Shown here: in pieces, positions 430 through 49,277 of the stretch
How positions within the stretch are numbered: the stretch's first letter is position 1
Layout: each line of letters starts with the position of its first letter
DNA from: Porphyra umbilicalis
Lineage: Eukaryota; Rhodophyta; Bangiophyceae; Bangiales; Bangiaceae
DNA length: 64,000 nucleotides
Assembly: GCA_002049455.2 (NCBI GenBank)
Contig: KV918776.1
Coordinates: 124,001 to 188,000 of the forward strand
Direction of reading: 5' to 3'
Translations under genes and position numbers: made by a program
The notes under the pieces: model-generated
What the model was told of the DNA's origin: nothing
The model's input: only the letters and a program-made list of their open reading frames with translations
Database searches by the model: none

Positions 430-2649
430 ATGGGCGGGGCGCCGGGCAGGACGGGCGCCCCTAAGGCAAAGCGCTCGACGGCGGCCACCCCGCGGGCTGG
501 CGGGGCGGCGGCGTCTGCACCTGCGACGCCGGCCGGCGCCACCAAGTCAAGTGGCGCGGCCTCGGCGGCGGCGCGCAGGAATGCAGCCTGTCGGTCTGGC
601 CAGGCCAACGGCGCGCCCCCGAGGAGGGAGTCCTCAGCGGAGGGGAGTCAAGCGACGCCACCGCCTTCGCCCCCCCGCCGGTCCCAGTTGTCAGCGGGGT
701 CGGAGGCGGTCTCCCGCGCGTCGAGTGCGGCGACGAGGTCGGCGGACGAGGACGCGGCCGCACCCCGCACGGCGGCGGCGCGCGTGCCGCGGCCGCCCTG
801 CCGGCCGGGCACTTCCATGGCGGCGGCGGTTGCGGCCGTGGCGGCGCCGGCCGATGGGGGGGATGATGCCATGGAGCAGCAGTCTTTTCCGCCGGTGCCG
901 CGCCGGGGGCGCCTCCCGGTAGGGAAGAAGGCGGGGCCCGCGGGGCTGAGGGCGTTTTTTCAGTGGACGCCCCCCCGGGCCCCCAGTCAGGTGCGGGAGT
1001 GCCGCCTGCAGACGCTTTACTCCGCGATCCCGCTGCCCAAGCACGGCATGCCTTGGCATCGCTGGCTCACGCGTGACCCCATGCAGAACGAACTGCTTGC
1101 CAGGGTGGAAACGGACTTCCCTGCCCTACTCGAGGCGGGGGACGCGGCGTGAGTGGAGCGCGCCGCCGCGCGCCTGTGCAATGTCATCAACGGGATAACC
1201 GCCGACGATGTGCCGCCTGTCGTGGCGTGGAGGTGCACGTGCTGTTCCTTCCTGTACTTAGGGCAGGGGGATCCCCACTTCCACCACAAGGACGCCCGCA
1301 CCGAGCACCGTGTGCGGGAGGCGTCGGGCATCCTAGTGCGGGCCTCTCAAGTGGAGAGCACCCAGGCCCACGCCTTGGCGCGCCGGGCGTACTACGTCCC
1401 AACGCCGTCCTGGTGGTCGGCAATGGAGGTGCTCTTCGGGTTCCTGGCCCGGATGCCGCGCATAGTGGCCTACTTTGGCACTGCGCTCCGACGGAGGAAA
1501 TCCACCCCGGCGGCGGTCATCCTTGCTACCCAGTGGGTTCTTGAGGTGGCGGGGGTGTGGAACGCCTCCGCCCGCCTTGAGGCGATACTGTGCCATCTGC
1601 CCGCCGCAATGCTGGGGCACCTGGCGGGGCTCAGCCTCACCAACGTTGCAAAGGGGTCAGGCCCGGACGCGCATGCGTACCTCAGCGAGTAGCTGGACCT
1701 CCACCAGTCGTTGGACTGGGAGGCGGCCGGGCCCTACCTTGCCCGCCGAGTTGGCCGAGAGGAGGGCAAGGCGCCTCGGGCGTTTGTCCACTGTGACAAA
1801 CGCCTGGTAGGCGGGCGCATTGGCCTCCGTGAGGGCCTGGGTGTCCTGGCCCACCTCAATGCTGCGAGGGTAGCAGCGACGTCGTCCCTGCCCGACCCGG
1901 GTTGGGGTGCGCCCGGAGTAAGCTCCCCTCTTCAGCGTGAGCGCACCCGGGGTACTGCCAAGCGCCCCGTTGCTCGTGGGAGCGCTGTCCGGATGACCGC
2001 CCGGGAGGATGCGTCACCCGCTGGGCGGTCGGGCCTTCCGACAATCACCCCGCCGGGAATCCCGTCTTCTCCGGCCCTGGGGGCGCGGCAGAGCCTCAGC
2101 TGGGTATTCGTCACCCCGCGGCGTGCCCAAGCCTTGGCGGCCACCTCGCAAAGTGCGTCGGGGGCGCTTAGGGCGGCCCATGTGGAGGCGATAGTGGACT
2201 CCCTGGTGGACACCCTTGCATGGGCTGCCCGGGGGGCGGGGGCCGTACTGCGGGACTCCTCGTCCCCCCGAACAGCCCTGTCCGAGCAGATCTTGGTGGA
2301 TACCACCCCAGAGGCCATCGGGTACCAGATGACCTCCCAATTGGAGAGACACGGCCAGCGGGTGGCGTCTGGGCCTAAAGGGCCTTCGGCACGCGGGGGC
2401 TACAGTCGGGCCTTGTACGCCAGGGAGCTTGCTCGCTCGGCCGCGCCCTACCATGAGGGCAGCTACACCGCCTCCGCTGAGGGGTTTGCCGCGGCGGGGG
2501 CGGCGCCGAGTAGGGCACCGCCTTCGTCGTGGGGGCCGTGCCCCGAGGACCGGGGGTCGGCCCAGGAGTACCCGGTGGACCCCTCAGTTTACGACCACTA
2601 CGGGGGATACGCCCGCGACGACTGCCCACACTCGCCAGGTAGGGAGTAG
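430..2649 (+). pseudogene. aORF1: antisense ORF of G1, unknown protein
   Basis: One plus-strand frame of about 740 codons runs to the TAG at 2647-2649, broken only by TGA at 1150-1152 and TAG at 1690-1692. An ATG at 817 may be the true start; codons before it encode an Ala/Arg/Pro-rich stretch. Visible regions are a low-complexity N-terminus; a core with PTPSWWSAMEV (1399-1431) followed by ARMPRIV and a hydrophobic ILATQWVLEVAGVW helix; a helical segment near residues 510-570; and a Gly/Tyr/Asp-rich tail (YDHYGGYARDD). The core resembles aORF2 and aORF4. It converges on G1 pol, whose frame ends near 2788, leaving about 139 bp. I recognise no known domain, and the function is unknown. Confidence 0.7.
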
Positions 2650-2787
2650 TTACCCTGGCCCGGGTAGGGTACCGGGGCGTTGAGTTATGGTCCGCCCCGC
2701 CCCCTACCATGTTTGTCCCTAGTTGGGTTGGATATTTTGTCGGGGGTGTGTGTGAGGGGTACCCCGTACTGGGGGTTTTTAGCTGTA

Positions 2788-4190
2788 CTATACCCTTCTT
2801 CTAATCGTGAGCCGGTGCCGCGCACAGTGCTGGCGAACCTTCTCAGCCGGGAGGTCCTCCACACAGTGCCAGGAGTCCTCCCGGGGTCCTTACCCGAGCC
2901 ATCTGATTTTGAGCATGATTCGCTCCTGGTCGTCGTACCCCTGTCCGACAAAGCGGTTGAAGACAGCCTCAACTGGTTTACTTGCCGATGAGGGGAGGGA
3001 GGGGACCACCCACGCGGCCAGTGCCCGTGCCCACGCCGGGTCAACTGAGGGTGGTTCAGGGGCCCGGGTAGAGTGATTTTTTAAGATGGTACGGATCCCA
3101 TCGTCACTTTCGATGGTAAGCCGACGCCCGTCGGTCTTCAAGATTTGGTAGGGTCCCAGTGTCATGATGACCAGTTTAACCCCCTGGTTTTTGTGGGACT
3201 TCACGAATACCCAGTCTTCAACTTGTAGGGCTTCGCGGCGAGACCGCACGCGCTTGTCGAAGGCTCGTTTGTACCGGGCCTGCGCCTTTTCCATGGTATC
3301 CCGTACTAGAGGGATCAGGGAGTCGAGGCGCTGAAGGAAACTCTCATTGGCTCGCCCGAGGGTTACTATCTCCCCGGGGTCGGGGCCCACTGAAAGTCGC
3401 TCGATGGCCACGGGAGTAAGCCGTCGGCGGCTTACGAACGCAAAAGGGATCTGCCCGGTGCCACTATGCACTTGCGAATTGTAAGCCATTACTACCAATC
3501 TTAAGTACCGGGACCACGTAACTACGTGGTCACTTACGTAGTGTCGTAGTTGCTTAGCTAAGGTCTTCTTAAACCGATCGACTTGACCAATAATTTGGGG
3601 GTTGTAAGGTGTGGCATAGTTAGTGTCAATACCAGGGGCCTTCAGCACCCCTTGCCAGAGTACGACAGCGAATTGGGGCCCGCTATCTCATAGAATTGAA
3701 TCGGGGATCCCATAGCTAGCAACCCACGTGTCGAGGAAAGCGCTGAGAACATCCAGAGCCATGATGTCTCGATGCAGGACCGCCCGAGTGACCGTAGTGA
3801 ATCGGTCACAAATAACGAGGATATACTCTTATCGTTCGGGGGTCCTGGGCAGGTGGACAAGTAAGTCATTGGCCAGCGCTGCGAAGGGTTCCGTCGCGGT
3901 CAACAACCTCATGAGCTCTGTACTCTGCGTACCCATGACCCGGTTCTGTGCACAGGTGAGGCAAGCTGCCACCCACCCGAACACATCCATCGCCAGCGAG
4001 GGCCCGCAGTATTGGTCCCGCAGTGTCTGGCACCTACGCGTCCCACCTGGATGCGCAGCCAAAGGGAAGGAGTGCTCCACCCGTAATACGCCCTTGACTA
4101 GGGACTGGAAGACCAGTACCTGCTGGGTCCCCTCGCGGTGTCCGCGACGGAACAACAACCCGTCTGCGTTCTCGTTGAAGCGCGTGGGTG
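2788..4190 (-). pseudogene. G1 integrase and chromodomain (pol C-terminus)
   Basis: Integrase would insert the cDNA into the genome. The zinc-binding region is visible at about 4158-3980 (EH...AAHPGGTRRCQ...CLTCAQNR), followed by the catalytic core. An in-frame TAA just before DSGPQFA interrupts it. The expected NGQVER glutamate motif reads IIGQVDR, so the third catalytic acidic residue is Asp rather than Glu. The long open part (3648-2890) holds the core end and the GPY/F-type module (KLVIMTLGPYQILK). It then runs into a chromodomain (MLKIRWLG, TAA, GPREDSWHCVEDLPAEKVRQ), placing G1 among chromoviruses. At least two nonsense codons mean it is not functional as read. Confidence 0.8.
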
Positions 4191-4244
4191 GGGGGGTGTC
4201 AAGTAACTTCTTGACCTCCTGACAGAACTCGTCTGCCGACTGCT

Positions 4245-5747
4245 TCAGGACTTGTTTGCCCAGGGGTATGCGGGCGGTCTCCCTGTTCTCAGGGAGTCGG
4301 GGTCGAGTACCGCCCCCGATCGAGTGGTCTCCCCAACTGTGGGGATCTCCTGAGAGATGGGTCGCGTATCCAGCCCCTCAGTCGGGATGCGGGACAGTGC
4401 GTCGGCCACCGCATGTTGGGGGCCGGTCTTGTACTCCACATCATAGTCGAAATCCGAGAGGAGGATGCGCCAACGATTGAGTCGATTGTTGGTGCAGGCC
4501 GTCAAGGTCAGTACTCACTTCAGTGCCTTGTGGTCACACCGGATGAGGAACTTTGTGCCTTCGATGTATGGTCGTAGTAAACCGATTGGACACACCACAC
4601 CTAGTCCCTCAATCTCGGTGACAGTTTAGTTCGTCTCCGCCGGCAGTAAGCTCCTACGGACGTAGCCTACGGGCAGGTACATGCAATCGGGTTGTTGCTG
4701 TAGTAGGCAGCAGCCTAGCTGGTCGTGTTTCGCATCCACATCGATGATTTACTTCCCCTCCGTGCGCGATATCGCAAGGATGGGCGGGTGGCATAGCTGT
4801 TCGCGTAGTTTGTCGACCGCGTTCTGTTCCTCCGGGGTAGGGGGACTCAACCGCTTCGGAAGCATCACGCTGTTGACGTTGTTTAGCGGCTTCGTGGTCT
4901 GAGAGAAGTCTACCGTGAACCGACGGTAGACATTACACGTACCCAAGAAGCTCCGTAGTTGGGTTTGGGTCTGGGGAAAGCTGGCCTTCTTGATGGCCTT
5001 GAGGTTCTTGACGTTCACACTCACGCGTCCTGGCCTCACTCCATGGCCAAGGTACTCCACCTCGTTAGTGAAGAGGTGGCACTTCTGGGCATTGAGGGTG
5101 ACCCCGTGCTTTCCGAGTAGGGTGAGCACCGTGTCCAAATGGGACAGGTGCGACTCGGCATCGGCGGAGAAAATGATGAGGTCGTCTAAGTGGACGAGCG
5201 CATTCTGCCACTTGACTCCGGATAGGATCATGTCAATAGCCCGCTGGAAAGTGGCAGGGGCATTGCACAGGCCAAACAACAGACGCGTACACTGGTACGC
5301 CCCACAGTGGCAAGTGAATGCCGTCTTCAGCTTATCCTCGTCGGCTGGGGGGATCTGCCAGTACCCCGCGGTGCATTCCACCGTGTAGAAGAACTGGGCA
5401 TCCCCTAAGGAGTCGAGGCAGTCGTCCATCCGGGGTAATGGATAAGAGTCGCGTACTATGCGCTTGTTCAACTGCTGATAGTCAATGCAGAACCGGGGAC
5501 TCCCTTCGGGCATCAGGATGAGTACCACCGGGCTAGCCCATTCACTCTGGCTGGGCTCTTTAACTTCGAGCTTGAGCATTCGGTAGACTTCGGCCATGAT
5601 TAGTTCTCTAGTTCGGGGACCCATCCGGTAGGGGTTGAGCCGGTCGAGCTTGGAGCCCGGCTTCAACTCGATCCGGTGATCCGTGGCCTTGATGGAGCCC
5701 AAGTGCCCACTCCAGAGGGCTCGTTGCTTTTCCGGTAGGGCGAGCAC
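4245..5747 (-). pseudogene. G1 reverse transcriptase and RNase H
   Basis: The RT ORF 5747-4749 (332 aa) shows the chromoviral RT order: ASPVVLILMPEG, FCIDYQQLNKRIVRDSYPLPRMDDC, LFGLCNAPATFQRAIDMIL, then LVHLDDLIIFSADAESHL (the catalytic Asp pair is present as HLDD) and YLGHGVRPG. RNase H continues in 4748-4245 with several stops; its C-terminal part is clear (NNRLNRWRILLSDFDYDVEYKTGPQHAVADALSRIP). An in-frame TAA at 5748-5750 separates this from the protease-linker frame. Nearest relatives in the window are the G2 and G3 RTs. The RT core looks intact, but the polyprotein is broken. Confidence 0.88.
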
Positions 5748-6570
5748 TTAAGGCAGCAGCCCGTCGGGAACGATCGAAGTATGCACGTGGGGCTCCTCAA
5801 CGGGGTCCGTCGCGTCGGGCGCGGTGGTCGGACTGAGGCTGAGTGCAGCCCAGTCCTCTCGGGATATGGCGGCTACCGTACCGAAGTAGACAGACATATG
5901 CCCCATGACTATGCCCTTTGGGAATTGCTTACTCGTATTCCCCGTATGGGTTTCCTCCACCCACCACGTCTGGTTGGCGGTACAGTCCATGGTGCCAGTT
6001 GCAACATGCACGCGGTGGCGCTCATACACTCGATGGCGCTGGATAATGATCCCATTCTCTTGGAATGACGTCTGTTTGAGGACGTATTCCCGGGACCGCG
6101 GGGGTAGGACCACCTCGTGTGCCTGGCGCACCTTGGTGTCTACCTCACAAGCGGCCCCCAACTTGGGTTGGTCCGCCATTGCATGCGTCACCGTGTTACC
6201 CCGACGGAGGATGGGGACCCTGCATCCGTTTAGTAACCGGATGTACCCCTTGGGCCCGCAAATGTTGGGGACATGGACGTTAGTGAAGTCGGTTCGCAGG
6301 AGTAGAGGGACCGACATGCCACTATCCCACACGTGGCTGGGGTGGAGTAAGTGCCGACTCGCGTCGTAAAAGTCACAGTACCCGTGATGAGGAGGAGTCC
6401 CCCATTCACGTCAAGCAACTGGGCGGTCGCCGCGTCTTAGGGTGCCACCTCCATCGCCGGGGGGAGTAGCGCTTCCCGTACTAGGAAGACGCACGACCCC
6501 GTGTCGACTATGACGCGGAGGGCTAACTCACGCCCCGCGTCTAGCCAGACGCGGCCGTCCACCTGGTAGG
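5748..6570 (-). pseudogene. G1 protease and protease-RT linker
   Basis: The retropepsin active site is visible as ALRVIVDTGSCVFLVREALLPP, with the DTG codons at about 6497-6505. It is followed by a linker frame (6332-5748, 194 aa) running in frame to a TAA before RT. A stop also follows MEVAP near 6440. An aspartic protease of this kind would process the Gag-Pol polyprotein. The left LTR of copia-A1 begins at 6571, 22 codons upstream of the DTG; the missing upstream codons are at 12229 and above. Confidence 0.75.
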
Positions 6571-11650: not shown

Positions 11651-11793
11651 GTTGAAGACAGCGGCGCGACCAAGCACCGCACTGACGACGTCGACGGCGG
11701 TATCGGCCCGCGCGACGCAGGAACACACCGCAACCCGAGCAACGTCGTCCGACCAGCGACCGCAGGGAAGACGACGATGACCACCAGCGACAG

Positions 11794-12228: not shown

Positions 12229-12235
12229 GTAGCTG

Positions 12236-15205: not shown

Positions 15206-15207
15206 TT

Positions 15208-20110: not shown

Positions 20111-20173
20111 ACTATGTTCCCTCCGATGCGGGTTGGCGCACCGCTACCACCCCGAGGAAGCTTGAGTTGCCTT

Positions 20174-20193: not shown

Positions 20194-20195
20194 AA

Positions 20196-32235: not shown

Positions 32236-32784
32236 GAGGCGACGGAAGGTGCTGTTGCACAACGCCGTCCACGGCCGGCCTAACCCTACCGGGCGAGCCA
32301 TCTTTTGAGGGATATGATCGCCAAGGAGGTGCAACGTTCACGGGACCTCGGGCTCATCTAGCCCTCGAGTGTAGAGTAGGCCTTCCCTGTGGTCCTGGTC
32401 CGGAAGCTCGACGGGACGATACGGTTTTGCATGGATTTCCGCCAACACAACGAGGTAACGACACGGGACGTCTAACCATTGCCGTGTATGGACAATTGTA
32501 TTGACTTTTTCGGGGACGCTAAGGTGTTTTCGTTGCTCAACTGCAACTCAGAGTATTGGCAGATCCATAAAGACCGCGACAAGACGATATTTATTTATCA
32601 TGACGGAGCCCATCGCTACATTTGCCTTCCTTTCGGTCTTTCTAACGCCCCGGAGACCTTCCAAGGGGCCATCGACATGAGTCTTGGGGGACTCAAGTAG
32701 AAACGTTGCCTGGTGAACCTCATCGAAATCATCGTTTTCTCGCAGTCGGCGGGGGAACACTTGAAACACCTTCCGCTGCGTTGA
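32236..32784 (+). pseudogene. G4 reverse transcriptase fragment
   Basis: A plus-strand RT fragment in one frame with several stops: AFPVVLVRKLDGTIRFCMDFRQHNEV, PLPCMDNCIDFFGDAKVF, CLPFGLSNAPETFQGAIDM. The catalytic YLDD box is destroyed (CLVNLIEIIVFS). The fragment ends at the RT motif EHLKHLPLR and runs straight into the antisense frame aORF4. The rest of pol is deleted. Confidence 0.8.
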
Positions 32785-33544
32785 CGCAGATGATGGACGG
32801 CCCAATGGAGCGGATCCAATCGAGCAGTCCCGAAGGGAACCGCCACAAGAACCGACGGGTGCGGAAGATGTGGAAGAGAACGACGGCCGCCGCGATGACC
32901 AACTCGCTGCGGAAAAAGGCGCACGGGGTGCGCCGCCTCGCGTGACTGTCTTCCGTTGCGTATTCGTGTACCCACAAGAGCTCCACTATGCAACTGTACG
33001 GGACCTCGACCTCGGACCGCCACGCGGGAGTCGGAAGGTAGAAGCGGGAGCGGGTCGCCGTGGCGCAGCTGGAGTAATCCTCCTGGTGCCACGCAACGAG
33101 GTGACCGGTGAGGCTGCCCGGGTGATTGCGGGCCGTCGTCAACTGGACCGTCGTGGGGCCCTCCGGGTCCGACACGTCGATGAATGGCGGACACATCAGC
33201 ATGTAGTCAAAGGTCGGCATCAACAGTAAGTTCATTAGGGGGTCACCCATGAGGCCGACGTAGGAGCGACGGTACGCCACCTCGCGGCTTCGCCTCACCA
33301 CGGTGATCGACATGGCCCAGTCGACCGAGGACGGTACGAGGGCGTGCGGCATGATGGCAATCTGCTTGGCGAACATGTTGGCAGGGTGCATCGAGTCGAT
33401 GCGCCGGAGCGTCGCGCGCGCCAGCGTGTCCGCTACACCCATTTGGGCCTCCTTACGCTCCCACGCCGGCGCCCACGTCGACAGGTCGGACAACTCGGGC
33501 AGGGGGCTCACGGCGGCGGATTCGCTCATCTCCTCGTCGGCCAT
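32729..33544 (-). pseudogene. aORF4: antisense ORF of G4, 3' truncated
   Basis: The open frame runs from 33853; ATG 33544 (MADEEMSESA) is the better start, resembling the starts of aORF2 (MASADL) and aORF3 (MADSAA). It encodes LMGDPLMNLLLMPTFDYMLMCPPF, the core FYLPTPAWRSEVEV (about 33043-33002) and a hydrophobic FFRSELVIAAAVVLFHIF segment. It then runs into antisense RT sequence, so the C-terminal helical region and tail seen in aORF1 and aORF2 are missing. No stop interrupts the retained part. Like the other copies it converges on pol. Function unknown. Confidence 0.68.
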
Positions 33545-34805
33545 CTCGGAGGACCGCGCAGACGCGGAAACCTCGTCGTCGGGCGGCCGCCGGGTCTTTG
33601 GTTCAATGAGGGGGGTAAAGGTAACCGCGTGGTGGAAGAGAGCCGGAAGGGGTGCCCCGAGCGCCAACACAATCAAGAAGCGGCGGGCGCCACGAGGGGG
33701 GGGGGGACGGCACGTCGTGTGGTGGGAGGAGGAAAAATTCGGCAAACATTGTGTCGCGACCAGCGCGGATGAGTGACGTGGCGGGGTGGCGCGGAGGAGT
33801 TGCGGAGTCGCACGTGGTAAGGGTCTGAGACCGGGGTGCGCGTGCGGGCCCACAAGAAGAGGTGGGGCCAGCGTGTGTCACGGGGGGGGTAGAGACCAAG
33901 AGACACCGGCGTGGGCCGCGCGCCACGCCACGCAGGTGTAGCGTGAGCTCGATCCAGTCCGCGGACCGACCTCGATAACCCCTACGCGGCTAGGATCGGG
34001 GGATGGGGGGGTGGCGATTGTGGCCAGCACTCGGCCCTGGGGCCGGGCCGGACCTGCCTCCTCAGGGGTCGTCGCGGGACAAGCAGAAACGCCACGTCAC
34101 GCGATCAGGGGGCTGCGTGGCGGTCGGGCGTTCCGCAGTTGGAAGGAGCGTGGCCCCTTAGCTGTGTACAGCACACCCCGGGGGGCTGTCCCAAAACATC
34201 CTGATCCGGGCCAGGAAGGGAATGACGGGTCCAGATCTCGGGGAGATCGGATTCGGTCGAAGGCGAGGCTTTACCCCTGTTGTTTTCCCAGCCCCCCTGC
34301 TACTTGTTTGAGCTTTTTGATTTGGAGGAATTTGTCTGTTTGGTGCAGTTGGGGCGGCTACTGTGGCCGCCGGTGTTCGGGTTGCGGATGAGTTCATTGA
34401 CTGAGGGGACGCCGTCCCCGTCGCCGTTTGAACAAATTAACTGTGCTTTGGACTACGATGCCCCCCTGGGATTTGCGTGATCAGCTCCTCCCGCTGAGGG
34501 AAGGCTGCGCTGTGGGCCGGTTTCCGGGACAGTTCCATCGACGGACCGAGCTGATCAAGAGGTGACTTCGGCTAGCCAAAGAACTGCCGTGGAGCTTCCT
34601 AGAACCGCTGCAGTGCCCCATTGGCGGGCGTGTCTGCCGGGACGCCATCGGCGCTGACCCACGGCCGGGGGTCCGAGTGGCCAAAAGCCAGTTTTGGCGC
34701 GGCGACAGGCGTGGACGAAGAGACGGCCTCTGTAGCCACCGGCGTCGCCGGGATCCGGACGCGGGCCGGCACGTCCGCCGCGGCCCCACCGGCCGCACTG
34801 GGCCG
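33545..34805. other. Unassigned interval; possible start of G4 3' LTR
   Basis: A purine run (33992-34011) followed by TGGCGATTGTGG could be the polypurine tract and 3' LTR start of G4, but no LTR partner exists in the window. Short ORFs on both strands (for example 34397-34158 -) match no domain I recognise. The part 34600-34805 is Ala/Gly/Pro-rich in translation and not assignable. Confidence 0.3.
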
Positions 34806-35299: not shown

Positions 35300-36059
35300 A
35301 TTTGTGGATTCTGCCCGCAAAGCCGACCGCCCCGTCAGAAAACCCAGCACAGGATGCGGAGCGACAGAAAGGAGAAAGAACACAAGCGCCTGGATCACAG
35401 GGGCGAAGTGCACCAGATTGCCGGAACTCACGCAAACGCAACGCTGATTTATTCGAGTACGCACGATGACCTCAAAGCATACACTCATATTCCCTCAGAG
35501 ACAAGATGCAGGACGTGCACAATCCCGACCCAGGAAGAGACGGTCGTAGGGGGGCCGGTGCCCGGCGGGCCAAGGTCCCTGATGCGGGGTCCTGGTGGTC
35601 CCTGCCACGGATCAAGGGACCCCCTTCCACTGGAAGAGAGATATGGTCCCTGGATTCAAGCCAGCTTGGACTGAAATTGCCCAACACATCACTAGGGACA
35701 TATCCCCAGATTTTCAAGTCTCCGAACGAATTCCTCGTGGGAGTTCGACAGTGGCCGAGATCTTATCTCGGCCCCGGGCTTTTCCCCGGTCAAAGGAGCT
35801 TCCACAAGCTTCCAGGCCCCTCGAGGGGGGCAGGATCGATGGGTCGCGTTGCCCCTCATCCGCGTCAGGCCCTGCCCAACTCGGGCTCTCTGGGAGGTCG
35901 AGGTAAGCCTCGGAGACGGTCCCAAGCCCCACCTGGCGTGCGCCCCGAAGGTGCGCCGCACGCCGCTCCCTCTAGGGGCATTGCGTGTGTGCTCGCGGCC
36001 CCTCCCCCGGCTCAAACCGGGGGGATTGCGACATCAGAGGAGATGGGGTTTCGCCCACA
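35300..36059 (-). repeat. G2 3' LTR
   Basis: About 760 bp, aligning throughout with 44895-45663 (shared CTGCCCGCAAAGCCGAC, CCCTCAGAGACAAGATGCAG, CCGGGGGGATTGCG). Confidence 0.85.
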
Positions 36060-36428
36060 TATCCCCCACCTCAGGGCCCGCATCTCGTTGGACCGGGGCA
36101 GTGTCCAACGGCCCCACACTTTTCTGGGGGAGCTCCCGGCGACTTGTTCCGCCCTGCGACTCGAGGGGCCCTCTGGAGGGTACGCTTGCAGGCCGTGCCC
36201 CGGACTCCCCCGGCGCCCTGTGAGCCCCTCCCACCTGGGCGTACAAGATGGTTCCCTTTTTTTGGGGGACCTGACGACTCGGGCGTCCCGAGGGCATATT
36301 TTTCGTCATGAGGTGGGCCAGTGCCAAGAGCGCGGATCCGGGGTTCTTCCCCTTTCTTCGCCGACCTCGTGCCACGCCCGTGGGTGGGGCTTCTTGGACT
36401 TTCTTAAGTCCCGATCTCGCGGGGTACG
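36060..36428 (+). promoter_or_regulatory. G2 polypurine tract and candidate aORF2 promoter
   Basis: 36060-36072 is the complement of a purine-rich tract next to the 3' LTR. The only AT-rich word before the aORF2 ATG is GCATATTTTTCG near 36293-36304, about 130 bp upstream, followed by pyrimidine-rich CCCCTTTCTTCG. This is promoter-like by position only; no gene is visible. Confidence 0.25.
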
Positions 36429-38436
36429 ATGGCGTCGGCCGATTTGGGCAACGGTACGGCCGCCATGACGGTCGACAGTCGCGCCAGCGCTTCAGTTGAT
36501 GTCCTCGGGGAGGAGGAGGAGATTGACGGCACCTCGGCCTCCCTCCTGTCAGCTTCTTGGCCGACTTTCGCCGTAGTTGACGTCTCTTTTCGCCGGTTCC
36601 CCTGGGACCTCAGGGGGTCCCTGGTTAAAAAGCGGTATGCGGTCCTTGAGAACCGCCGCATGGTCAGTCTTTTGACGGCCATGCGGGCCAACTACGGCCC
36701 GTTGTTCGCCGTCCCCGAGGGGACGGCAACGGACTTCCCATTTCTCCGCCGTCAGGGGGACTGGCGGGTGTGCCGGGTGCCTCGCCATTTGGCGGAGCGA
36801 GATCTCCACCCGAAGGTGGGCGACAAGCCCTCATTCTCTTGAGACTATTACCCTGGCACTCCCCCCAAGATGAGGGAGGAGGACCGCGGGTACTGTGTAC
36901 CCGGCGCTCTTGGGGAGGGGACAATCCGCACCACCCTGGGCGTCCTGGTGCTCCATGAGCAGCGGGAGGTCCAGGAAGCTCCTTTGTCCCGGCGTAAGGC
37001 CCTGTATCCGATCGCCCCCTTTTGGTGGTCGTCCGTAGAGGCATCGCACGGCATGGCAGCGCGGATGCCATAGACGGTGGCGCTGCGTGGCAACAAGCTG
37101 ATGCGAGAGGTCCTCGGGGGACCCTACCATATTTTGTTGGCGACCTTGTGGGCCGTCAAGGTGACCGACGTCTTTGTCGGCAGCATCCGCCACCACGGCC
37201 ACTTGTGGCGTCTTCCGCCAGTCAGACGGACGGCTTCGGTTGAGCTCACGGCCGAGCGACTGTGCTCGGCCGACTCGTCAGCTCGGCCCCTCTCGGAGGC
37301 CGCGTTAGAGCTCCTCCGCCTTGTGGGTGGAGGAGCTGAAAAAGGAGTCGTGGATCGTTGATGATGGGAGCCCCCGAGGGATCTTCCGGTGCGCCAACGG
37401 GCTTGACAACGACGGGGTCTTGGACCTCATAAAGAGCCTTGGTGACTCCAGCCTCCCTAATGGGAGGGATGTCCCTCACGAGCTGCGTCTCCGTCCCCTA
37501 TATCGGGACCTGGCCTTGGCCGGGCCGAACCGTTACGGTCCGGCGGCCCTTTTGGCTCCTCCGGCGGCACTGCCGCCGTCGCCTGCCGCGAGCTCCGCGG
37601 TTTTGCCGCAACTGGCTCCGCCCCTTTGTTGGGCGGTCTCTCGTCCCTATACCCCGCGTTGGGGCGGGCTTTATGGTCGGTCGCGTCGTTCGCACCCCGA
37701 AGGTGGGTCGGTCCCCCTACTTTGGGGGCGTTCGGGTCCGCCGTTGGCGTCACTTCCCTTTTTCTCTTGAGACAGGGCCGCCCAACTGGGGACCCCTCGG
37801 CCTGTGCGGCGCGAGGTGTGGGATGGCTTGGCCCGCTCCGTAGGGGAGCCTCCCCAAAGTCTCACCAACGGGGTGGATCACACCCTGATGATGGCCCTAA
37901 GCCGCACCCTGGTGCGGCTTTGCAACGAGATGGCCGTTATTGTGTCAAGCCCTATGGGTGACCGAGAAGCGGACGTACTGTATTCTCTGAGTACATTCGA
38001 CTCGGTCCGCCGCCTCTTAACAGAGGAGTATGGCGCTGCCGTGGCGGAGACCAACACCGTTTTGGCATGATGGTCTATCCTCAACTTGGCGTTGCCCCCA
38101 GTTCCGGCCGGGGGCGGTATTTCGCCGGCGTCGCCGCAGCGTCCGCCGTCCTCGTTCCCACCCCAATACGGCGTGGGGTCTGGCTCTTCGGTTCCGCCCC
38201 ACTATGGGGCGGGCTCGGGTTCGGCTGCCCCGTCCCCTTCTGGGGCGGCCTCGGGATAGGCTACCCCGCCCTATTATGGAGCGGGCTTCGGTATTGCTAT
38301 TCTGGTCCCTTATGGGACGGCGACCGGTCCCTCGGCGACACCTCCGACCTTTTCGAGGCCGCGGTATTTCTCGCGCAATGAGGATGCCTGTCAGGGCTAT
38401 AACGCTGACTTTGGTTCCCGCTCCGGAGCTTGGTGA
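36429..38436 (+). pseudogene. aORF2: antisense ORF of G2, unknown protein
   Basis: ATG 36429 (MASADLGNGT). The frame runs with TGA at 36840 and TAG at 37071, shifts by one frame near 37330, then continues with TGA at 37768, TGA at 38068 and a TAG near 38260 to a final TGA at 38434-38436. Regions: acidic N-terminus; core YPIAPFWWSSVEA (37005-37043), then ARMP and LLATLWAVKVTDVF, matching aORF1 PTPSWWSAMEV, ARMP and ILATQWVLEVAGVW; a helical segment (LMMALSRTLVRLCNEMAVI); and a Pro-Tyr-Gly repeat tail (PPQYGVGSGSSVPPHYGAGS). It converges on G2 pol with roughly 200 bp between the stops. No recognised domain. Confidence 0.68.
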
Positions 38437-38639: not shown

Positions 38640-40461
38640 ACTTGGTCGGAGAAGTTTACCCCTTCCCGCGTCAGGGGGGGAGTTTACTTTTCTTCTGCAG
38701 AAAACATTTCCGGAGGGCTTCTCTCGGAAGAGAAGAGGCAAATTACCACGTGGCTTCCCTGTCGGGAAACCCAAACCATTTGACTAAGAGCTTCAATTGC
38801 CCGTAATCATTCCAAGCATGTTTGACAACATATTCAAACACGTATCTGGGACCATTCTAAAGGTGGGTCCCCTCCTTACAGAGGGCTTGTGCCTTCAGGG
38901 CACGGGTCCACTCGGCATCCCGCGCCGGGGGCGTGGGAGCTCCAGGGACATGGTCCCTGCTCACCGTCCTGAAGCCCCTGGGGCTCTCTATCAGTAATCG
39001 GTACCCATCTGTCTGTAGTCCCATGTAAGGCCCTTGGGTCATGAACCCCATCTTTTTTGGCGGGCGTTAGTGGGCATCCAGTCAGACTCAGTCCCCAGCT
39101 TTTGGCTGGTTTTTCTTTTCTCGAGCGCGCGCATCGAAGGCGCGCTTGTACGCTGCCTGGGCTTTCCCCATGTGCTCCCGGACCTTGAGAAGGAGGGCCT
39201 TCAGGTACTCAACATATTGTTCCGCCGCCGAGCTGGCGTCGACGGGTCGTTCCTAGGCTTGTCTCAGCCGAGGCATTCTCTCAATTCCAATGAGTTGGAG
39301 CCGCCTCGGGCTCACGAAAGCAAAGGGGGTCTCCCCAGTGCTAGAATGGACCTGCGTATTGTACGCAGTTTTCAAAAGGGACAGATGGCTGTCCCACTCG
39401 GCTTGGTGCTCCGCCACATGGCAACGTAGCTGTCGAACAAGGGTGCGGTTATACCGCTCCACCTGCCCATTCGTCTGCGAGTGATAAGACGAGGTATAGT
39501 TCGAAGCTATACCGAGTAAACCCAGGATGCCCTGGTAATATACCGAGGCAAACTGCGGTCCGTCGTCCGTAAGGACCGTGTCGGGGATGCCAAATGCGGC
39601 AACCCATGTATCCATAAAGGCCGATTCCTTGGTGAGCGCCGTACCTTGCCTCAGAGGGACGGCTCTTGTCAACTCAGTGAACCGGTCACAGATGACCAGA
39701 ACGTGCTTGTGCCCCCCTTGAGAGGTGGGCAGTGGGCCCAAAACGTCCATGGCGAGCCCCGAGAATGGCTTGTCGGCGGTGAAAAGCTTCATCACTGTCG
39801 TATGGTTTCTCTCTGAGAGACGGTTCTTGGCGCACGCGGGGAATTGCTCCACGTGCTTGTTCACGTCGACGACCATCGTAGGCCAGTACACATACGAACG
39901 AAGGGTGTTATACATCTTTGTCGAGCCGGGATGCCCGGCTAGCACCGACTGGTGTTGGTGAATTAGGAGGCGCTTCCTTAGCGCCTCTGGGATAACCACT
40001 TGGGTTTCCCGTCCGTACATCGAGCGACGGCAGAGTAGCCCGTTCTTATCTCGGAAGAAGAACGCTTGACGACTGCACGTGGGGTCGGGAGGCGAAAGAG
40101 AATCGAGCTCTTCAAGCATGGCCTGGCAAAAGGCGTCCTCAGCCTGGCCCAGGATAATCTCTCGGGCCGGCAGGGCCCCCATTGGGGCCTCCTCCGGTGA
40201 TGCTTCTTGTAAGACGTCACTGGCCCGGGTCTCGACCGCTAGGACGGGGATGTCCTCGTACAGGGACGAGGTGACCAAACCCTCGGTAGGGGGGCCGCGA
40301 TAGCGCGTCTGCCACCTTGTGATCCTTTCCCGGCTTATGCCGTATCTCATAATTGTGCTCTGATGGTCGGAGTCGCCATCGGTTGATCCGAGCATTCGGA
40401 CCCATTCTAGTGAGAGCCGATAGCAGGGCGCGGTGATCACACCGCACCATAATTTCCGCAC
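38640..40461 (-). pseudogene. G2 integrase and chromodomain
   Basis: ORF 40461-39253 carries the HHCC region (HQHQSVLAGHPG ... VEQFPACAKNR; the first Cys of the CxxC pair is Phe) and a complete integrase DDE: Asp in AMDVLGPLP, Asp in LTDDGPQFAS, Glu in NGQVERYNRTL. Downstream, after stops, a GPY/F-like module is visible at 39051-38857 (MTQGPYMGLQTDGYRLL). A chromodomain follows near 38850-38750 (YVFEYVVKHAWNDYGQLKL, VKWFGFPDREATW, then TAA). The chromodomain would target chromatin during integration. The ORF N-terminus is out of frame with RNase H. Confidence 0.82.
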
Positions 40462-41482
40462 CTTGTAGGTAGGACCGTAAAAAAGTCACGGCCCGGACGA
40501 CGCCTAGCGCCTCGATCTCCGTGGCGAAATAGTTCTTCTCCGCGTGGAAAAGTGCACGGCTAAAGAAGCCGATGGGGTGGTATTCCCCGTCGGACTGTTG
40601 TTTCTGTAAGCACTAACCCTGCTGTTCACAGCTGGCGTCGACGTCGACGATATAATGCCCGTGCGTCTTGCGCAGTGCTAGGATACAGGCGTCAACTAGA
40701 CGTCCTCGGAGTATATCAAAGGCGTCTGTCTCCTTCCCTGAGGGTGGAGGAAGCGTCATAGGAAGCTTGGTGCTTGTAAGCGCCGTGAGTGGCGTCGCTA
40801 TCTTTGCGAAGTGTGCTACGAAACGGCGGTACACACCGCACATACCCAGAAAGCTCTTCATTTGTGTCTGGTTTTCCGGATAACGGAGACCCCGAAGCGC
40901 CCGGACGTTCTTCTCCAGGACATGTACCCGTCCTGGTCGGATCACATGACCGAGGTATTCCACTTCCTCCGGGAAGAAGTGGCACTTAGACGCCTTAAGG
41001 GTGACCCCTGTGTTCCCGAGCAGGGTCAAAACCTCCTCAACGTGCTGTAAGTGTTCCTCGGGGGAACCCGAGAAAACAATCACATCATCCAGATATACCA
41101 AACATATCTGCCACTTCACACCGGCCAGGATCATATCCATGGCGCGTTGGAAAGTCGCACGGGCGTTGCACAACCCAAAGGGAAGGCGCACGCACTGCCA
41201 CGCGCCCAAGTGGCACGTAAAATCCGTGAGGTGTTTGTCCTCCTCAGCTACTGGTACATGCCAGTGACCCGCATTACAATCCAGGGTGGAGAACACCCTG
41301 GCGTCCCCTAGGGAGTCAATGCACTCATCTATCCGTGGGATGGGGTACGCTTTCTTGATAATCATGATGTTGAGATTTCTTGAATCGATACAGAAGCGCA
41401 CCGATCCATCAGGCTTTGGTACCAGTTCCACGGGGCTAGCCCATTCCCCGCTCGCGGGCTCAATAACATCCATCGAGCGCAT
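40217..41482 (-). pseudogene. G2 reverse transcriptase and RNase H
   Basis: RT ORF 41482-40613: ASPVELVPKPDGSVRFCID, AYPIPRIDECIDSLGD, RLPFGLCNARATFQRAMDM, then the intact catalytic LVYLDDVIVFSGSPEEHL and YLGHVIRPGRV. RNase H begins IVDVDASCEQQG, meets a stop, and resumes in the same frame at 40489-40217 (VRCDHRALLSALTRMG ... KVADALSRPP). The shift into the integrase frame occurs about 40250-40330. Confidence 0.87.
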
Positions 41483-41659
41483 GCGCTCGACTTCCGCATT
41501 CTCTCACTCCCGGGCCATTGGCCCTGCCTTGTACGGGGGCTGTCTCACGGGGACAGCCCCAGGCTTCAGTCGGATTCGGTGTTCCACACGTCGGACTCAG
41601 CCGAGCTTTCCCTTCCAAAGGGAGGAATGCGTTTGGAGGAAAGCCTTTACGGGCCCCGA

Positions 41660-42528
41660 TCACTCCGCCGGCACCGACAAAACATCCACCTTCGGCAGAG
41701 GTGAACCCTTTACCCCTTGAGGGGGCGTAGCGAGCTCCTTGAGCTCGCTCTCAGAGACCTCGTACGTCGGCCCCTCATGGGCGTCGATGTACCCGATGTT
41801 CATATTGGTTGTTAGCCGCAACGGCGTAACGCCGAGGTGCATCACCTGGATGGTTATGGCCTCGTTTGCCATCATCATGGCAGGGCCTTGTGCGACCTGT
41901 AGACCATGCTTGTGGTACAAGGGCGGTCGCCCTCTCATGAGGCCATGCCTTGTGTACGTACTTCTGACGGAAACATGTGCTATTGTCCCGGGTTGGACCC
42001 AGGTCTTCCGGGCTGGCTTCAGTTGAGCCGTTAGCCGCTCGTGGCAATCACAAACCGCCGAACTGGAGGAATCGGGGCGTCCCCTAGTGGCTCCTCTCCT
42101 CATGATCGGCACCTTGGTGCCGTCTAGGAGTTCCACATGTTGCTCCTGTGATGCAATGTTCTTCGTCGTAACTTCGATAAGAGAGGTGCCCAGAAAAGCT
42201 GGGACACTCAAATCGTTCACAACTCCAAAAGAGATGAAGGAGGTCTGACCCCCAAGGGTCGCACCAAATTAGACAGCTCCAACAATGGGGAGCCGGCCCG
42301 CATTGACCTTATGGAACATCTTCGCGAGATCACCCAGCGGTTGTAGCGGGATTTCGACCGGCAATAGCCGCCGGTCATGAGAGTTGGGCCACTACCCGTA
42401 TCCAATATAGCCCGGGTAGTGAGATCAAATCCTATCGTCAGGAATAACCGGACGGCTAGTTGGTATTTAGAGGAGGGCATGAACGCGCAAGGCGGTTCCT
42501 TTGGGGTTCTCCTTTGGGAGGCCCCCAC
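41660..42528 (-). pseudogene. G2 protease and linker
   Basis: The protease active site is intact in 42528-42217 (FDLTTRAILDTGSGPTLM). The protease end and linker lie in 42220-41660 (SVPAFLGTSLIEV ... VELLDGTKVPIMRRG), one frame over, so there is a frameshift near 42220-42300. The linker frame leads into RT with stops. Confidence 0.75.
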
Positions 42529-42621
42529 TACTCGACTAGGCCGATTTCTCCCGGCCCTCCGAGATGACTTGCGTCACCAGTCGGCCCCACTCGTCTCCCG
42601 GGCGGGTGAGAAAAACTCACC

Positions 42622-44117
42622 CGCTACTCGTTTGCCGAGGGGGAGCTGTCCTCCTCGTCCTGCTCGGCTGCGTCCCTCCCTGAGGAGGGTAAGTCGTCCG
42701 AAGACGACCACGGGGGACCATAATGTTCCCTCACCGCCGCGACCGGTTGTCCTTTACGGACTCCCTCCGCCGTCTTGCGGCGCTCCTCGCACCGCTTCAG
42801 AGAGGCTTTGGTCAATAGAGCCTTTGTCCCCGCGTCAAGGCGGGGACACTCTCTAGAGAAGTGCCCTTGCATGTTACATGTGAGACAGTTATTCGTCCGG
42901 GGTCGCCCGGGACGACCTGCTTCTTCCCGGGGAAGACCATGTGGCGCTTAATTTACATTGGTGAAGGTCCGCGGGGAAGGCCCTCGGGGCCCTTCCCCGA
43001 CCTTAGCGGAAGCCCATGAGGTCTGACCGTGTAGGCCCTCCTTCACCTGAGGGGGGCCCCATCGGGATGGACCTGCTTCAACAACTTTCGGGGGGTCCCT
43101 TCGGGAAGGATCCATCTCCCCGACCCTAGGTGCGCCCCATCGGGAAGGACCCGGAGGAACTTCCCCCACCTGAGGTGGGGCTGTTGCTGCCGCGGTGACG
43201 TATTATCGCGGCGCCGGCCGGGCAGCGCCACGTACCCGACGGGCCTCGGCCCATCGGTCCTCTTCATCCTTTCGTTCCTGGAGCCGTCTTCGACAGACGT
43301 CCCCCTTCCGCTGGGCATATTGCTCCAGCAGGTCCATTGGCATGTTGGGGGTATTATGTTCGCGCACATCGGCGCGAATCTCCCAACGAAGCCTCTGCAT
43401 ATAGCGACTTTTCAGTTGTCCTTCCAAGTGAATATAACCACACAGGCGACGTCACCCCCGTAGGCGTACGTAGTAATCATTCTCTGTTTCATCCGCCCCT
43501 TGGGCGGCCCCATGGAACAGTCCATCTTGGTCGCTTAGCGACTTCTCATCTGCGTATTCGCGGAGGAGCCAGTTGATCAGTTCTAAGAAGGATCTGACCT
43601 CTGCACTTTGTCCTCCTTGGAGGGACGGCATGATCGTATACAACTCACGCTTGAGGGGAACCTTGGTGAACTAGGGAAGGAGATACAGGGCCCGGCCCTC
43701 CGAGAAATCATTGTCGTCAACCGCTGTTACGAAGCGGCTGACAAATTCGAAGACGCCGAAGGCGGGCGTCCCATTCCACTCTGCGTCACGGCCAAAAGTG
43801 GCCGATTTATCCTGACGCAGACGCCCTGGGCTTTGCGCCATGGTCCGGTCGTACCGGATGTCGGTATTCGCCGAAGCATATGTTGCGCAATCTAAGACTG
43901 CTGCATAGCGATCGTCCGCGGGGACGATCTTCGGGGGAATTCGACGGTAGGTTTCCTCTCCCAGCTCGTGCCGTAGTTTACAGGTGACCGATCGACAAGG
44001 CACATGGCAGCCCCCATCTCTCCCGGAGTACTCTCCATCCGAGGAGGAGGAACGTATGCGCCGACGCCGGCGCCGGGACCGTCTGGTGGTCCCGAGGGCT
44101 GTCTCTATAAGAGACAT
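42622..44117 (-). pseudogene. G2 gag
   Basis: A single frame from ATG 44117 (MSLIETALGT) to about 42622, broken by in-frame stops only. The N-terminus is Arg/Ser-rich, then come core segments homologous to G1 gag (PPKIVPADDRYAAVL ... EFVSRFVTAVDDNDFSEGRALYLLP; RSFLELINWLLREY; REHNTPNMPMDLL). A repetitive PSRWG linker (43169-42948) leads to an intact CCHC zinc knuckle, CLTCNMQGHFSREC, near 42895-42850, and an acidic C-terminus (SSSDDLPSSGRDAAEQDEEDSS). Confidence 0.8.
42948..43169 (-). repeat. ~45-bp minisatellite coding a PSRWG repeat in G2 gag
   Basis: The translation shows about five ~15-residue units beginning V(G/K/V)E and containing PSRWG or a variant (VGEVPPGPSRWGAPR, VGEMDPSRRDPPK, VVEAGPSRWGPPQ, VKEGLHGQTSWASAK, VGEGPRGPSPRTF). 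It sits between the gag core and the zinc knuckle. Confidence 0.7.
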
Positions 44118-44894: not shown

Positions 44895-45663
44895 ATTTAG
44901 TGGTTCCTGCCCGCAAAGCCGACGGGGCACAACCCCGTCAGAAAACCCAGCACAGGATGTGGAGCGACACAAAGGATAAAGAACAAAAACGCCTGGGTCA
45001 CAGGGTGCGGAGCGCATCAGAATGCCGGAACTCACGCAAGCGCAACGCTGATTTACTCGAGTATGCACGATAACCCCAAAGCATACACTCATATACCCTC
45101 AGAGACAAGATGCAGGACAAGCTCAATCCCGACCCAGGAAGAGACGGTCGTAGGGGGGCCGGTGCCCGGCGGGCAAAGGTCCCTGATGCGGGAACCTGGT
45201 GGTCCCTGCCACGGATCAAGGGACCCCCTTCCACTGGAAGAGAGATATGGTCCCTGGATTCAAGCCAGCTTGGACTGAAATTGCCCAACACATCACTAGG
45301 GACATATCCCCAGATTTTCAAGTCTCCGAACGAATTCCTCGTGGGAGTTCGACAGTGGCCGAGATCTTATCTCGGCCCCGGGCTTTTCCCCGGTCAAAGG
45401 AGTTTTCACAAGCTTCCAGGCACCTCTAGTGGGCCCGGATCGATGGGTCGCCTTGCCCCTCATCCGCGTCACGCCCTGCCCAACTCGGCCTCTGTGGGAG
45501 GTCGGGGTAAGCCTCGGGGACGGCCCCAAGCCCCACCTGGCATGCGCCCCGAAGGGGCGCCGCACGCCGCTCCCTCTAGGGGCATTGCGTGTGTGCTCGC
45601 GGCCCCTCCCCCGGCTCAAACCGGGGGGATTGCGTCATCAAAGGATAGGGGGTTTCCCCTGCA
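44895..45663 (-). repeat. G2 5' LTR
   Basis: About 769 bp, partner of 35300-36059, ending CCCTGCA before the target copy GATGG. The PBS TGGTGGATGAGCTGGGG (minus strand, 44893-44874) lies just left of its start. Confidence 0.83.
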
Positions 45664-45925: not shown

Positions 45926-46321
45926 TGTGGTAGTTATAACGCTAGTTCAATTACCAGTGTACTGAGACCAACCGTAGCCAAGCAATAAAGCGAGATTTAT
46001 AGCCGTCGCGGCGAGGAAGAAAGATCTTTTGTTGAAGGGCATCCGATGGGGAGCCGGGTGGCGCCCACGACGACGACCCCGGACCCACGGTGATCTAATA
46101 CAAACGAGGGCACCGGTCGATCGACCGTCCGACCACAAGCGATAGTAATGAGTGCCGGCAGACAGATAAGACAGGCAAGCAAAAAAACAATAAAAAATGA
46201 ACAATGCGAAAGAAACCCCCCAAAGGGCGTGCCACAGGCCAATTCCCACAAAACAAGGGCTTTCGTCAGTCAAGGAGGCATCTTGTGGCCAGTTGCCAAT
46301 TGGGAGCAGAGTTATGCTACA
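45926..46321 (-). repeat. G3 3' LTR
   Basis: 396 bp, partner of 55764-56159. The AT-rich middle (AAAAACAATAAAAAATG) contrasts with the GC-rich surroundings and may hold the element promoter. Confidence 0.92.
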
Positions 46322-46975: not shown

Positions 46976-47316
46976 GTATTCGTGCTCACGCACAGGTCGA
47001 GGCCTAACGGCAAGCTTGAGTGCGGGTGTGCTACCGCAAGGTGGCAAACCGCGAGGTTGTGGACCCGGTGAGTGTGGGTTTGCGCTGGGTGGGAGGGGGC
47101 GTCGCGCACGGCGGCAAGGACGGCAAGCCTGGCAGCGACGGCGGCAAGTGCGGCAAGCCCGGTGGCGACGGCGGCAAAGGCGGCAATCGCGGCATCGGCG
47201 GCAAGGGCGGCAAACGCGGCGTCGGCGGCGGCAAGGGCGGCAAGCGCGGCGTTGGCGGCAAGCGCGGCACCCGCGGCGTCGGCGGCCAGGGTCAACACCC
47301 CCGAACGGCCAAAGCT

Positions 47317-49277
47317 ATGGCGGACTCGGCCGCGATGGCGGTGGACGGCAGCGGTGCCGATGGCGGAGCGGTCGTCGACGGGGCGCATGCCGCCGCGGGG
47401 GGCCATCCGGAAGTGGATTGTTCCACGGAAACGGAGGTCTGGCGCCAGTTTCGGCCTCGCGGCTCGTTTGACGCACACGCGAAACCTGTGATGGTGGTTG
47501 ACGGGGTCCCGCGAGTCACCGACAACCGTCTCTACGATATGTGCGTGCGCAACCGCGCTCGTGCGCACACGCGTGGTGTAAACGCGCAGTGCGAGGCCTT
47601 GCCTGACTTCGTTGACGTGATGGCGCAAGCCTGCTTACCGGACTACGCGGGCAACCGCGTGGTCGAGGTCCATGGGGACCCGTTCTTTGGGAACCAGGGC
47701 CCCCAGCGTCGTGTGTACGAGGTGATGTCGCTTTGCAACGAGGTCGTGCGCTACCAAGTGCCTCTGCATCCGTTCCACCGTTTGGTTTACGCCAATGCGC
47801 TTCTGTTTCCTGTAAATGCGACGGAGACGGTCGAAGGGCGGCCAACCTCTTTTGCCGCTTGTTGCGCAACTGGCCGAGGGCCGTCTTCCTCATGTGGACT
47901 CTCGCCGAGGACCTTTCGGTCCCGTTCGGGCACGACTCCGGCCTGGAGCCGTACCTTGAACAGCTTGCGCTGGTGAAGCACGAAGAGAACGACGGCGTCG
48001 AGGACGACCGCAGTCCGCGTGTCACAGGGTTACCGAACCCCTTCCGGTTGCCGATATATTCATCCGACCACCGTCGGGCCGCCGACACGCGCTTCTTTCG
48101 CGGTCGCCAGTTGATGCCCACCGCGTGGGCGGCTGGTTTTCTCCGTGCGCCACGGACGTTCGACTTGTCCCGTTGGCTTCCGACTATCCCGGAATGGGAG
48201 CCACGCACGGGGCTGTGGGTGGCCACCGCCGTAGTGGTGTCGTACCTGGCGGATGCGTTGCGCAACGACTACAGCTTAGTCTGGCAGGAGCTGCACTCCG
48301 ATTACTACTGCAACTTAGTTGCTGAGTGGGTTCACACCCTTCAGGAGGACAAGCTCTTCGTCCTCTTGGACGATAGGACGTTTCTTCATTTCGACGTGTT
48401 GGACACGTCCAAGTTCAAGGACGCGCCCGACGGCGAGGCCAAGTATGTCTGTTACGGCAAGATTCGCCAGGCCAAGAAGGCATTTTCATGGCGGACGGTC
48501 CTTAAGGACGTTTTCTGGCGCGACCGCGACTCCGGGGAAGCCCGTCAATTGCGGATCAGGGTCGACGCGACCAAGGAGTACGGCTTTTACCTTCGTCACC
48601 CTTGTGTCGATTTCGACTGAGCGTTGGACCCACATGCGCCACTCCCGATGGTTCGAATCACTTCGAACCACCCCGGGGCGTGGCGTGGCGGTCGTCGGAA
48701 CTGGGCTCACGACGTTGGCGACACCCGAGAGGGCCGCTACCGCTCGCGTTCGCCGCGGCGCGATTGCTCGCCGTCTTCGCCCCGGGCGATGAATCTCACT
48801 TGGCCAACCCGCGCGTCTTCTTCCGCGGCGGTTGCCTTGTTTGTGTCGGCGCGCTCGCGCTATGTACGCGTTCGCGCACCCCGTGGGGTAGCCTTGTCGA
48901 CGGTGGCTCACGCCTAGGTCGAGCAGATCGCGGGCCTGCGGACCGCTGTTGAGCGCGTGGACAGACGGGGTGTCGAGTCGGCTTTGTCCATCATTGGACA
49001 GGCCGTGGCTCGCGCCGTTGACGGCGATGTCAGCTACGGGCGATTCACCCAGCACCTGGAGACTATCAAGCCAGAAGAGGAGGCCACGCCGGCGCGTTTT
49101 AACGCGCAGAGCATTCTTGGTCGTCGGACCCATGAGGGCGGGGGCCCGTCGACGGGGGCTGCGCCCTCGGCGCGCAACACGCGTGCGCGTAGTGTCTCTC
49201 AGGAGTCGGCGGCCAGTGCTGGCGCGAGCCGCGATTCCCGCCGGGACTCTCATCGTGGTGACGAGGAAAAGGAGTAG
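47317..49277 (+). pseudogene. aORF3: antisense ORF of G3, unknown protein
   Basis: ATG 47317 (MADSAAMAVD). The same frame is open upstream from 47020 and there encodes a Gly/Lys-rich stretch (GGKGGKRGVGG-type repeats, 47107-47290) that may belong to the protein if a non-ATG or upstream start is used. A frameshift near 47870 moves into the frame open to TGA 48618-48620; that frame continues past TAG 48915 to TAG 49275. The middle carries LWVATAVVVSYLADAL and KLFVLLDDRTFLHFDVLD, then an SR-rich stretch (GRYRSRSPRRDC) and a helical segment (VDRRGVESALSIIGQAVARAV) like those of aORF1 and aORF2. The stop is 142 bp from the pol end. Function unknown. Confidence 0.68.

Follow-up and report, generated by a model that had tools for sequence, protein, structure and literature searches.

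Several deeply diverged, probably chromodomain-bearing Ty3/gypsy lineages of the red alga Porphyra umbilicalis carry a convergent gene for an accessory protein between pol and the 3' long terminal repeat (LTR), and this gene is under purifying selection. Our analysis set out from a window of 64,000 nucleotides (contig KV918776.1, here C16, positions 124001-188000) of an assembly of 83.8 Mb in 665 contigs. An earlier note on this window had described a long antisense open reading frame (aORF) opposite gag-pol in each of four Ty3/gypsy elements, G1 to G3 and the remnant G4. Its coordinates hold for all four frames (Table 1), but only aORF4 is unbroken and the other three are interrupted. The four are mostly decayed members of genome-wide protein families, which we call fam1 (aORF1), fam5 (aORF2), fam3 (aORF3) and fam4 (aORF4). 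That the aORFs are real accessory genes under selection is, in our judgement, close to certain.

Genome-wide families in a fixed position

Searches of the genome with pieces of the aORFs returned at least 150 matches for aORF1, at least 114 for aORF4 and at least 120 for aORF3. These counts are lower bounds, since only the best candidates were scored, and the lists overlap in part between families: that of the aORF1 query also holds fam5 and some fam4 copies, and it is through this query that fam5 entered. In many of the matches the frame is open over 700-900 codons, and the open copies encode about 540-940 amino acids. In fam5 an identical frame of 746 codons recurs in several contigs, with about 32-33% identity to the aORF1 piece. 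A further lineage, fam6, on contig C63 (locus L082 2-2827, equal to C63:154001-156826), has a convergent frame of 942 codons in the same place and at least 50 genome matches, with frames of up to 1129 codons.

The host elements encode gag and then protease, reverse transcriptase, RNase H and integrase in Ty3/gypsy order, in gag and pol frames. The H2C2 and rve domains of integrase score above the Pfam cut-off in fam5 and G2, and protease and reverse transcriptase were identified by eye; the Chromo model gave E 2.7e-4 (21.2 bits) in fam5 and E 1.4e-3 (18.9 bits) in G3, both under its cut-off of 25.1. A fam4 element on contig C173 (119831-129318) is bounded by LTRs of 496 bp with 99.6% identity and by the target-site duplication (TSD) GTACC. 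Its gag frame has 542 codons and, by eye, a knuckle-like motif, reverse transcriptase and integrase are recognisable in its pol, and its pol and aORF stops, at 122927 and 122498, are spaced by 428 bp. In fam1, fam3 and fam5 the two stops are 130-142 bp apart. A fam5 copy on contig C137, with a pol stop at 40066 and a convergent aORF stop at 40197, gives the lower value (130 bp), and the spacings that the earlier note reported for G1 and G3 were recovered as 139 bp, counted from where pol homology ends, as the pol of G1 is itself broken, and 142 bp.

Among 150 scored integrase zinc-finger matches, the best of 679 candidates, 80 lie within 5 kb of a listed aORF, which is convergent in every case, so that homologues do occur at the same position in other elements; the earlier note would have taken their absence as a refutation. 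Fifty-six of the 150 pair with a fam1/5 or fam3 aORF within 5 kb, and in all 56 the aORF lies downstream on the opposite strand; when aORFs were placed at random, 200 trials gave 4.8 pairings on average and never more than 10. The fam6 lineage contributes 24 further integrases, all convergent, whose distinctness from the 56 was checked by eye on the coordinate lists. The pairing test took in 141 of the 150 fam1-query matches, all 120 for fam3 and 108 of the 114 for fam4, second pieces of copies being omitted. None of the 108 fam4 matches was paired with a scored integrase, though the fam4 element on C173 carries both, and the remaining 70 integrases are mostly untyped, the aORF matches being the best-scored ones only.

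This constancy of place bears on the possibility that the aORF gene was captured from the host or belongs to a second, nested element. Several diverged pol lineages have it at one and the same site, always convergent among the listed pairs, and no Pfam family was matched by six aORF pieces, seven aORF frames and the fam6 frame, neither of which favours capture. Transduction can nevertheless give rise to accessory frames (PMC7264820; this and the other papers given by PMC number are cited for parts of their text), and an ancient capture may still have taken place, as our comparisons covered element copies. We regard a captured or nested gene as very unlikely.

The aORF-bearing lineages can be set beside an integrase lineage for which no nearby match was found, a natural comparison for the function of antisense genes. 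This possible control is a classical chromovirus lineage. None of the listed aORF matches lies within reach of its copy on contig C40 (L001/L083), in which a sense chromodomain was recognised by eye, and in the 3.4 kb past pol of this one copy, whose 3' LTR was not located, the longest opposite-strand open stretch has 296 codons and is of low complexity. In a midpoint-rooted integrase tree of nine internal rows, two of them long and one of these two filling only 35% of the columns, the C40 copy and one on C94 (L004) split from all aORF-bearing lineages with full support.

Selection on the antisense frame

The antisense frame is the coding one. When all six frames were compared in 13 fam4 copies, the ratio of nonsynonymous to synonymous differences per site (pN/pS) was lowest in the aORF frame (0.40), followed by the mirror frame (0.53); in 16 fam1 copies the aORF frame was again lowest (0.74), by a narrow margin over the mirror frame (0.76). 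The mirror frame of these aORFs contains 21.5-22.3 stops per 1000 codons, a count that is fair for the five other frames only, as an open aORF frame was the condition for including a copy. The same 16 of 30 fam1 and 13 of 30 fam4 loci, selected for long open frames, gave a median pairwise ratio of substitution rates (dN/dS) of 0.37 for fam4 (77 pairs) and 0.67 for fam1 (120 pairs).

Perhaps such frames are simply by-products of GC-rich sequence or of the coding frame on the gag-pol strand. The GC content of the window is 61%, long gag-pol-strand frames overlap some of the aORFs, and pN/pS is below 1 in the mirror frame too. However, it is the aORF frame that has the lowest ratio, narrowly in fam1, the mirror frame is interrupted by stops, and protein similarity survives between aORF families. 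Thus the aORF is not a shadow of sense-strand coding, a suspicion that the earlier note had itself raised, and a by-product origin is scarcely credible.

Constraint varies along the protein. In all 13 fam4 copies pN/pS drops from 0.87 upstream of the initiating methionine to 0.31 in the core, rises to 0.46 in the linker, and is 0.24 for the C-terminal domain and 0.37 for the tail; the values in 12 of the 16 fam1 copies are 0.89 (N-terminal low-complexity part), 0.48 (core), 0.76 (linker), 0.62 (C-terminal domain) and 0.61 (tail). Four fam4 database clusters, each of exactly 544 amino acids, begin at the same methionine. Five young fam5 copies, pooled from the methionine, have a pN/pS of 0.37, with single pairs ranging over 0.17-0.80 on few changes. 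The ratio is thus not near 1 in the pooled young copies, nor in the fam4 core and C-terminal domain. At the same 11 of 30 fam1 loci, pN/pS is 0.48 for the pol C-terminus and 0.46 for a 187-codon aORF segment, and the spacer gives 2.08, 0.90 and 0.63 in three frames.

Selection at the codon level, similar to that on pol, is not what a pure RNA role predicts. An antisense RNA, acting as double-stranded RNA or by transcriptional interference at convergent 3' ends, would suit the convergent layout with merely 130-428 bp between the stops, and RNA roles have been proposed for plant antisense aORFs (PMC7264820). We consider it improbable that RNA instead of protein is the functional product, though the two could coexist.

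Around the gene, mean pairwise differences across 21 of 30 fam4 loci amount to 0.04-0.10 in the LTR and mostly 0.04-0.09 in the leader, whose last 120 bp reach 0.10-0.14; they are about 0.06-0.13 in the aORF, 0.11-0.25 in the spacer and 0.15-0.18 at the pol end. The leader between the 3' LTR and the ATG, mostly conserved to near the level of the LTR, looks as it would if it held a promoter or another cis element, but this gradient could also have been shaped by recombination and by homogenised LTRs.

Protein families and fold

Profile comparison with hhalign gave E 4e-16 between fam1 and fam4, E 5e-12 between fam4 and fam5 and E 1e-20 between fam1 and fam5. Judged by sequence, these three families are clearly homologous, and the common core that had been noticed in aORF1, aORF2 and aORF4 is well founded. 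The kinship of aORF3 with the others, also proposed at the outset, stands less firmly: fam3 aligns with fam4 at E 1.7e-5 (probability 78.6%) but with fam5 at E 0.58, and core-only profiles back the relationship weakly, above reversed controls, so that sequence comparison points only weakly to homology. The fam6 protein, represented by one sequence only, has no significant similarity to the other aORF families, and may reflect either independent origin or extreme divergence. Database homologues, in JGI/ENA sequence, number 17 for fam4, 27 for fam3 and 56 for fam5. Alignments A1, A2 and A3 hold 13 of the 17, 19 of the 27 and 26 of the 56, with one window piece in A1; alignment A5 holds 66 of 73 fam4 and fam5 proteins with two window pieces, and A6 all 27 fam3 proteins with one.

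In the proteins a variable N-terminus is followed by a Trp-rich core, then by a low-complexity linker, whose isoelectric point is 11-12 in both fam5 and fam3, and finally by the C-terminal domain. AlphaFold2 was confident only for the C-terminal domain of fam5 (residues ~448-557), which is modelled as all helical, and a sequence search of the PDB with the aORF proteins returned no match. Since the protein is large, partly helical and endowed with a basic linker, it loosely resembles a capsid with a nucleic-acid-binding tail and might be a structural or envelope-like component. One 19-residue stretch in fam5, of borderline hydrophobicity (mean 1.65), would be in keeping with this. Yet no clear transmembrane segment was seen in the four aORF proteins scanned (hydropathy maxima 0.92, 1.38, 1.41 and 1.65), the sense direction already supplies a gag whose knuckle is of the CCHC or a related type, and antisense expression would uncouple the aORF protein from gag. 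A structural role, while worth bearing in mind, seems unlikely.

A proposed role for the antisense protein

A more appealing scenario is that the aORF is a selected antisense gene with its own promoter and encodes a nucleic-acid-associated nuclear factor of the element; taken as a whole, we think this explanation probable, though by no means assured. An antisense promoter would be located either within the 3' LTR or within the conserved leader that separates this LTR from the start codon, and a separate antisense mRNA would be made from it. The protein may then regulate expression of the element or aid the integration complex, as proposed for antisense proteins of plant elements and comparable to HBZ of human T-cell leukaemia virus type 1 (HTLV-1). 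That it acts as a nuclear, nucleic-acid-associated regulator is a tentative proposal, suggested by the layout, the basic linkers and analogy.

Several observations weigh against this explanation. The fam4 pol end is nearly as diverged as the spacer, and therefore part of the gradient around the gene may be due to recombination and not to constraint. Constraint on fam1 is weak (median dN/dS 0.67; pN/pS 0.89 in the N-terminal part and 0.62 in the C-terminal domain), and three of the ten pairs of young fam5 copies have a pN/pS of 0.70-0.80, on few changes. The fam5 core and the entire fam3 model are of low confidence in AlphaFold2, the aORF models have no convincing match in the PDB, and the aORF proteins have no classical nuclear localisation signal beyond short basic runs.

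One could also imagine that the antisense gene is ancestral to one entire red-algal gypsy clade, fam1, fam3, fam4 and fam5, and perhaps fam6, descending from one gene of such age that hardly any sequence similarity is left. The plant Transposase_28 aORFs may even share an ancestor with it, in which case antisense regulators would belong to the ancient equipment of gypsy elements in Archaeplastida. We view a single origin of this kind as unlikely.

Relation to known antisense genes

Antisense accessory genes of plant LTR retrotransposons have long been known without an assigned function. Frames between pol and the 3' LTR form a recognised class, aORF-3R, with members in Grande, RIRE2, Retand, PvRetro13 and the fungal element Boty (PMC7264820, PMC11963269). 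The plant Tat/Retand representatives (Grande gene23, RIRE2, Retand ORF4) resemble the red-algal aORFs in place and opposite orientation; most copies carry the gene, its function is given as unknown and a nuclear role has been proposed (PMC11963269, PMC7264820). The antisense protein of Grande is nuclear, and its gene has its own promoter for transcription (PMC7264820, PMC11963269). Outside plants, the LTR element Boty of Botrytis cinerea and Sclerotinia has an antisense aORF-3R (PMC7264820) and is likened here by description only, and HBZ of HTLV-1 is an antisense retroviral gene with a promoter in the 3' LTR (PMC11963269, PMC7264820), the likeness being one of layout only. Retand is non-chromoviral and its antisense ORFs contain Transposase_28 (PF04195), which occurs in 97% of Retand clusters and, in the parts of these papers cited, is reported from flowering plants only (PMC11963269, PMC7264820). 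In contrast, PF04195 has no match in the red-algal genome at E <= 10 and none in the seven aORF proteins scanned, in line with the absence of recognisable similarity to plant antisense ORFs that the earlier note had recorded.

ORF3p of REM1, a Ty3/gypsy element of Chlamydomonas reinhardtii, has a PHD finger. Like the elements described here, REM1 is a Ty3/gypsy element of an alga and has a coding region in reverse orientation, in which a reverse-frame truncated integrase retains the GPY/F module and chromodomain (PMC2774666). Unlike in ORF3p of REM1, the red-algal chromodomain-like part sits in the sense pol, and neither PHD nor chromodomain models find a match in the aORFs. Sola1 of Ectocarpus likewise has an accessory gene, for a ParB/DNA-methyltransferase protein, on the strand opposite a core gene of an algal mobile element, and similar proteins are reported from both green and red algae (PMC12477816); however, Sola1 is a DNA transposon, and the red-algal aORFs match neither the ParB nor the DNA-methyltransferase domain.

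In the parts of PMC3350952 drawn on, retrotransposon chromodomains were not found in its red-algal data, and no description of red-algal antisense aORFs of this kind was found among the papers listed in the literature searches. The aORF family looks new, as a set of accessory proteins within an already known positional class. Of the suggestion that this might be an undescribed accessory gene of algal chromoviruses, the novelty of the protein family stands, while the position was known from plants and a fungus and the elements are those of a red alga. The present data extend the phenomenon to red algae with evidence of selection at the codon level, and suggest that antisense accessory genes arose, or were kept, beyond flowering plants. 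A single genome here holds four or five diverged aORF lineages, hundreds of whole and broken matches and at least one young complete element.

The frames in the window and their surroundings

In the window (Table 1), aORF1 is a single plus-strand frame (388-2646) interrupted by in-frame stops at two points, after 1149 and 1689. aORF2 runs in frame 3 (36237-37289) and then in frame 1 (37342-38433), with 78% and 75% identity to the open fam5 copy L069; aORF3 runs in frame 1 (47287-47853) and then in frame 3 (47838-49274), with 80% and 82% identity to an open copy. aORF4 is an uninterrupted minus-strand frame (33679-32780). As stated in the earlier note, aORF2 and aORF3 lie inside G2 and G3, whose LTR pairs enclose gag-pol and the aORF. 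The TSD of G3 is ATGGC on both sides; the candidate TSD of G2, GATGG, appears on both sides only after the BLAST-derived LTR ends are shifted outward by 1 and 4 bases.

Table 1. Antisense frames of the window and the elements that carry them (window coordinates)
Feature	Position	Strand	Remarks
aORF1 (fam1), antisense to G1 pol	388..2649	+	open copies elsewhere in the genome ~72-77% identical
G1 pol pieces, degenerate	2788..6410	-	fam1 pol C-terminus L009 3139-3537 = window 2791-3189; Copia starts at 6571
aORF4 (fam4), remnant beside Copia LTR	32729..33679	-	C-terminal part missing
G2 3' LTR	35301..36055	-	92.8% to 5' LTR; approximate ends; candidate TSD GATGG
aORF2 (fam5)	36237..38436	+	one frameshift between 37289 and 37342
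G2 pol pieces (reverse transcriptase, integrase H2C2, rve) and gag CCHC at ~42887	39256..42887	-	
G2 5' LTR	44897..45659	-	
G3 3' LTR	45926..46321	-	TSD ATGGC; LTR pair 93.7%
aORF3 (fam3)	47287..49277	+	one frameshift near 47838-47853
G3 gag-pol pieces	49419..55302	-	pol stop 142 bp from aORF3 stop; chromodomain match under cut-off
G3 5' LTR	55764..56159	-	TSD ATGGC

Adjoining the 5' LTR, G3 (window 55739-55763) and the fam4 element on C173 (L081 ~5699-5723) have TGGTGGAGCAGCAGGGGAT in common on the element strand, and G2 (window 44872-44896) likewise starts with TGGTGGA beside its 5' LTR. This common sequence is a candidate for a shared primer-binding site.

LTR elements densely fill the window. 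Two Copia elements (6571-12229 and 26734-32236) have 94% identity over 5 kb, with a partial copy at 59769-62332; the first sits between the pol and gag-like frames of G1, and the second adjoins the aORF4 remnant. At 14733-20110 lies an element bounded by LTRs of 473 bp (97.7%), which encloses head-to-tail units of 461 bp, a length not divisible by three, at 16283-18906 and is possibly a non-autonomous element with a satellite array. Elsewhere in the assembly, 10 of the 11 phycobilisome-family matches of the genome lie on a single contig, C665, which from these matches we read as the red-algal plastid.

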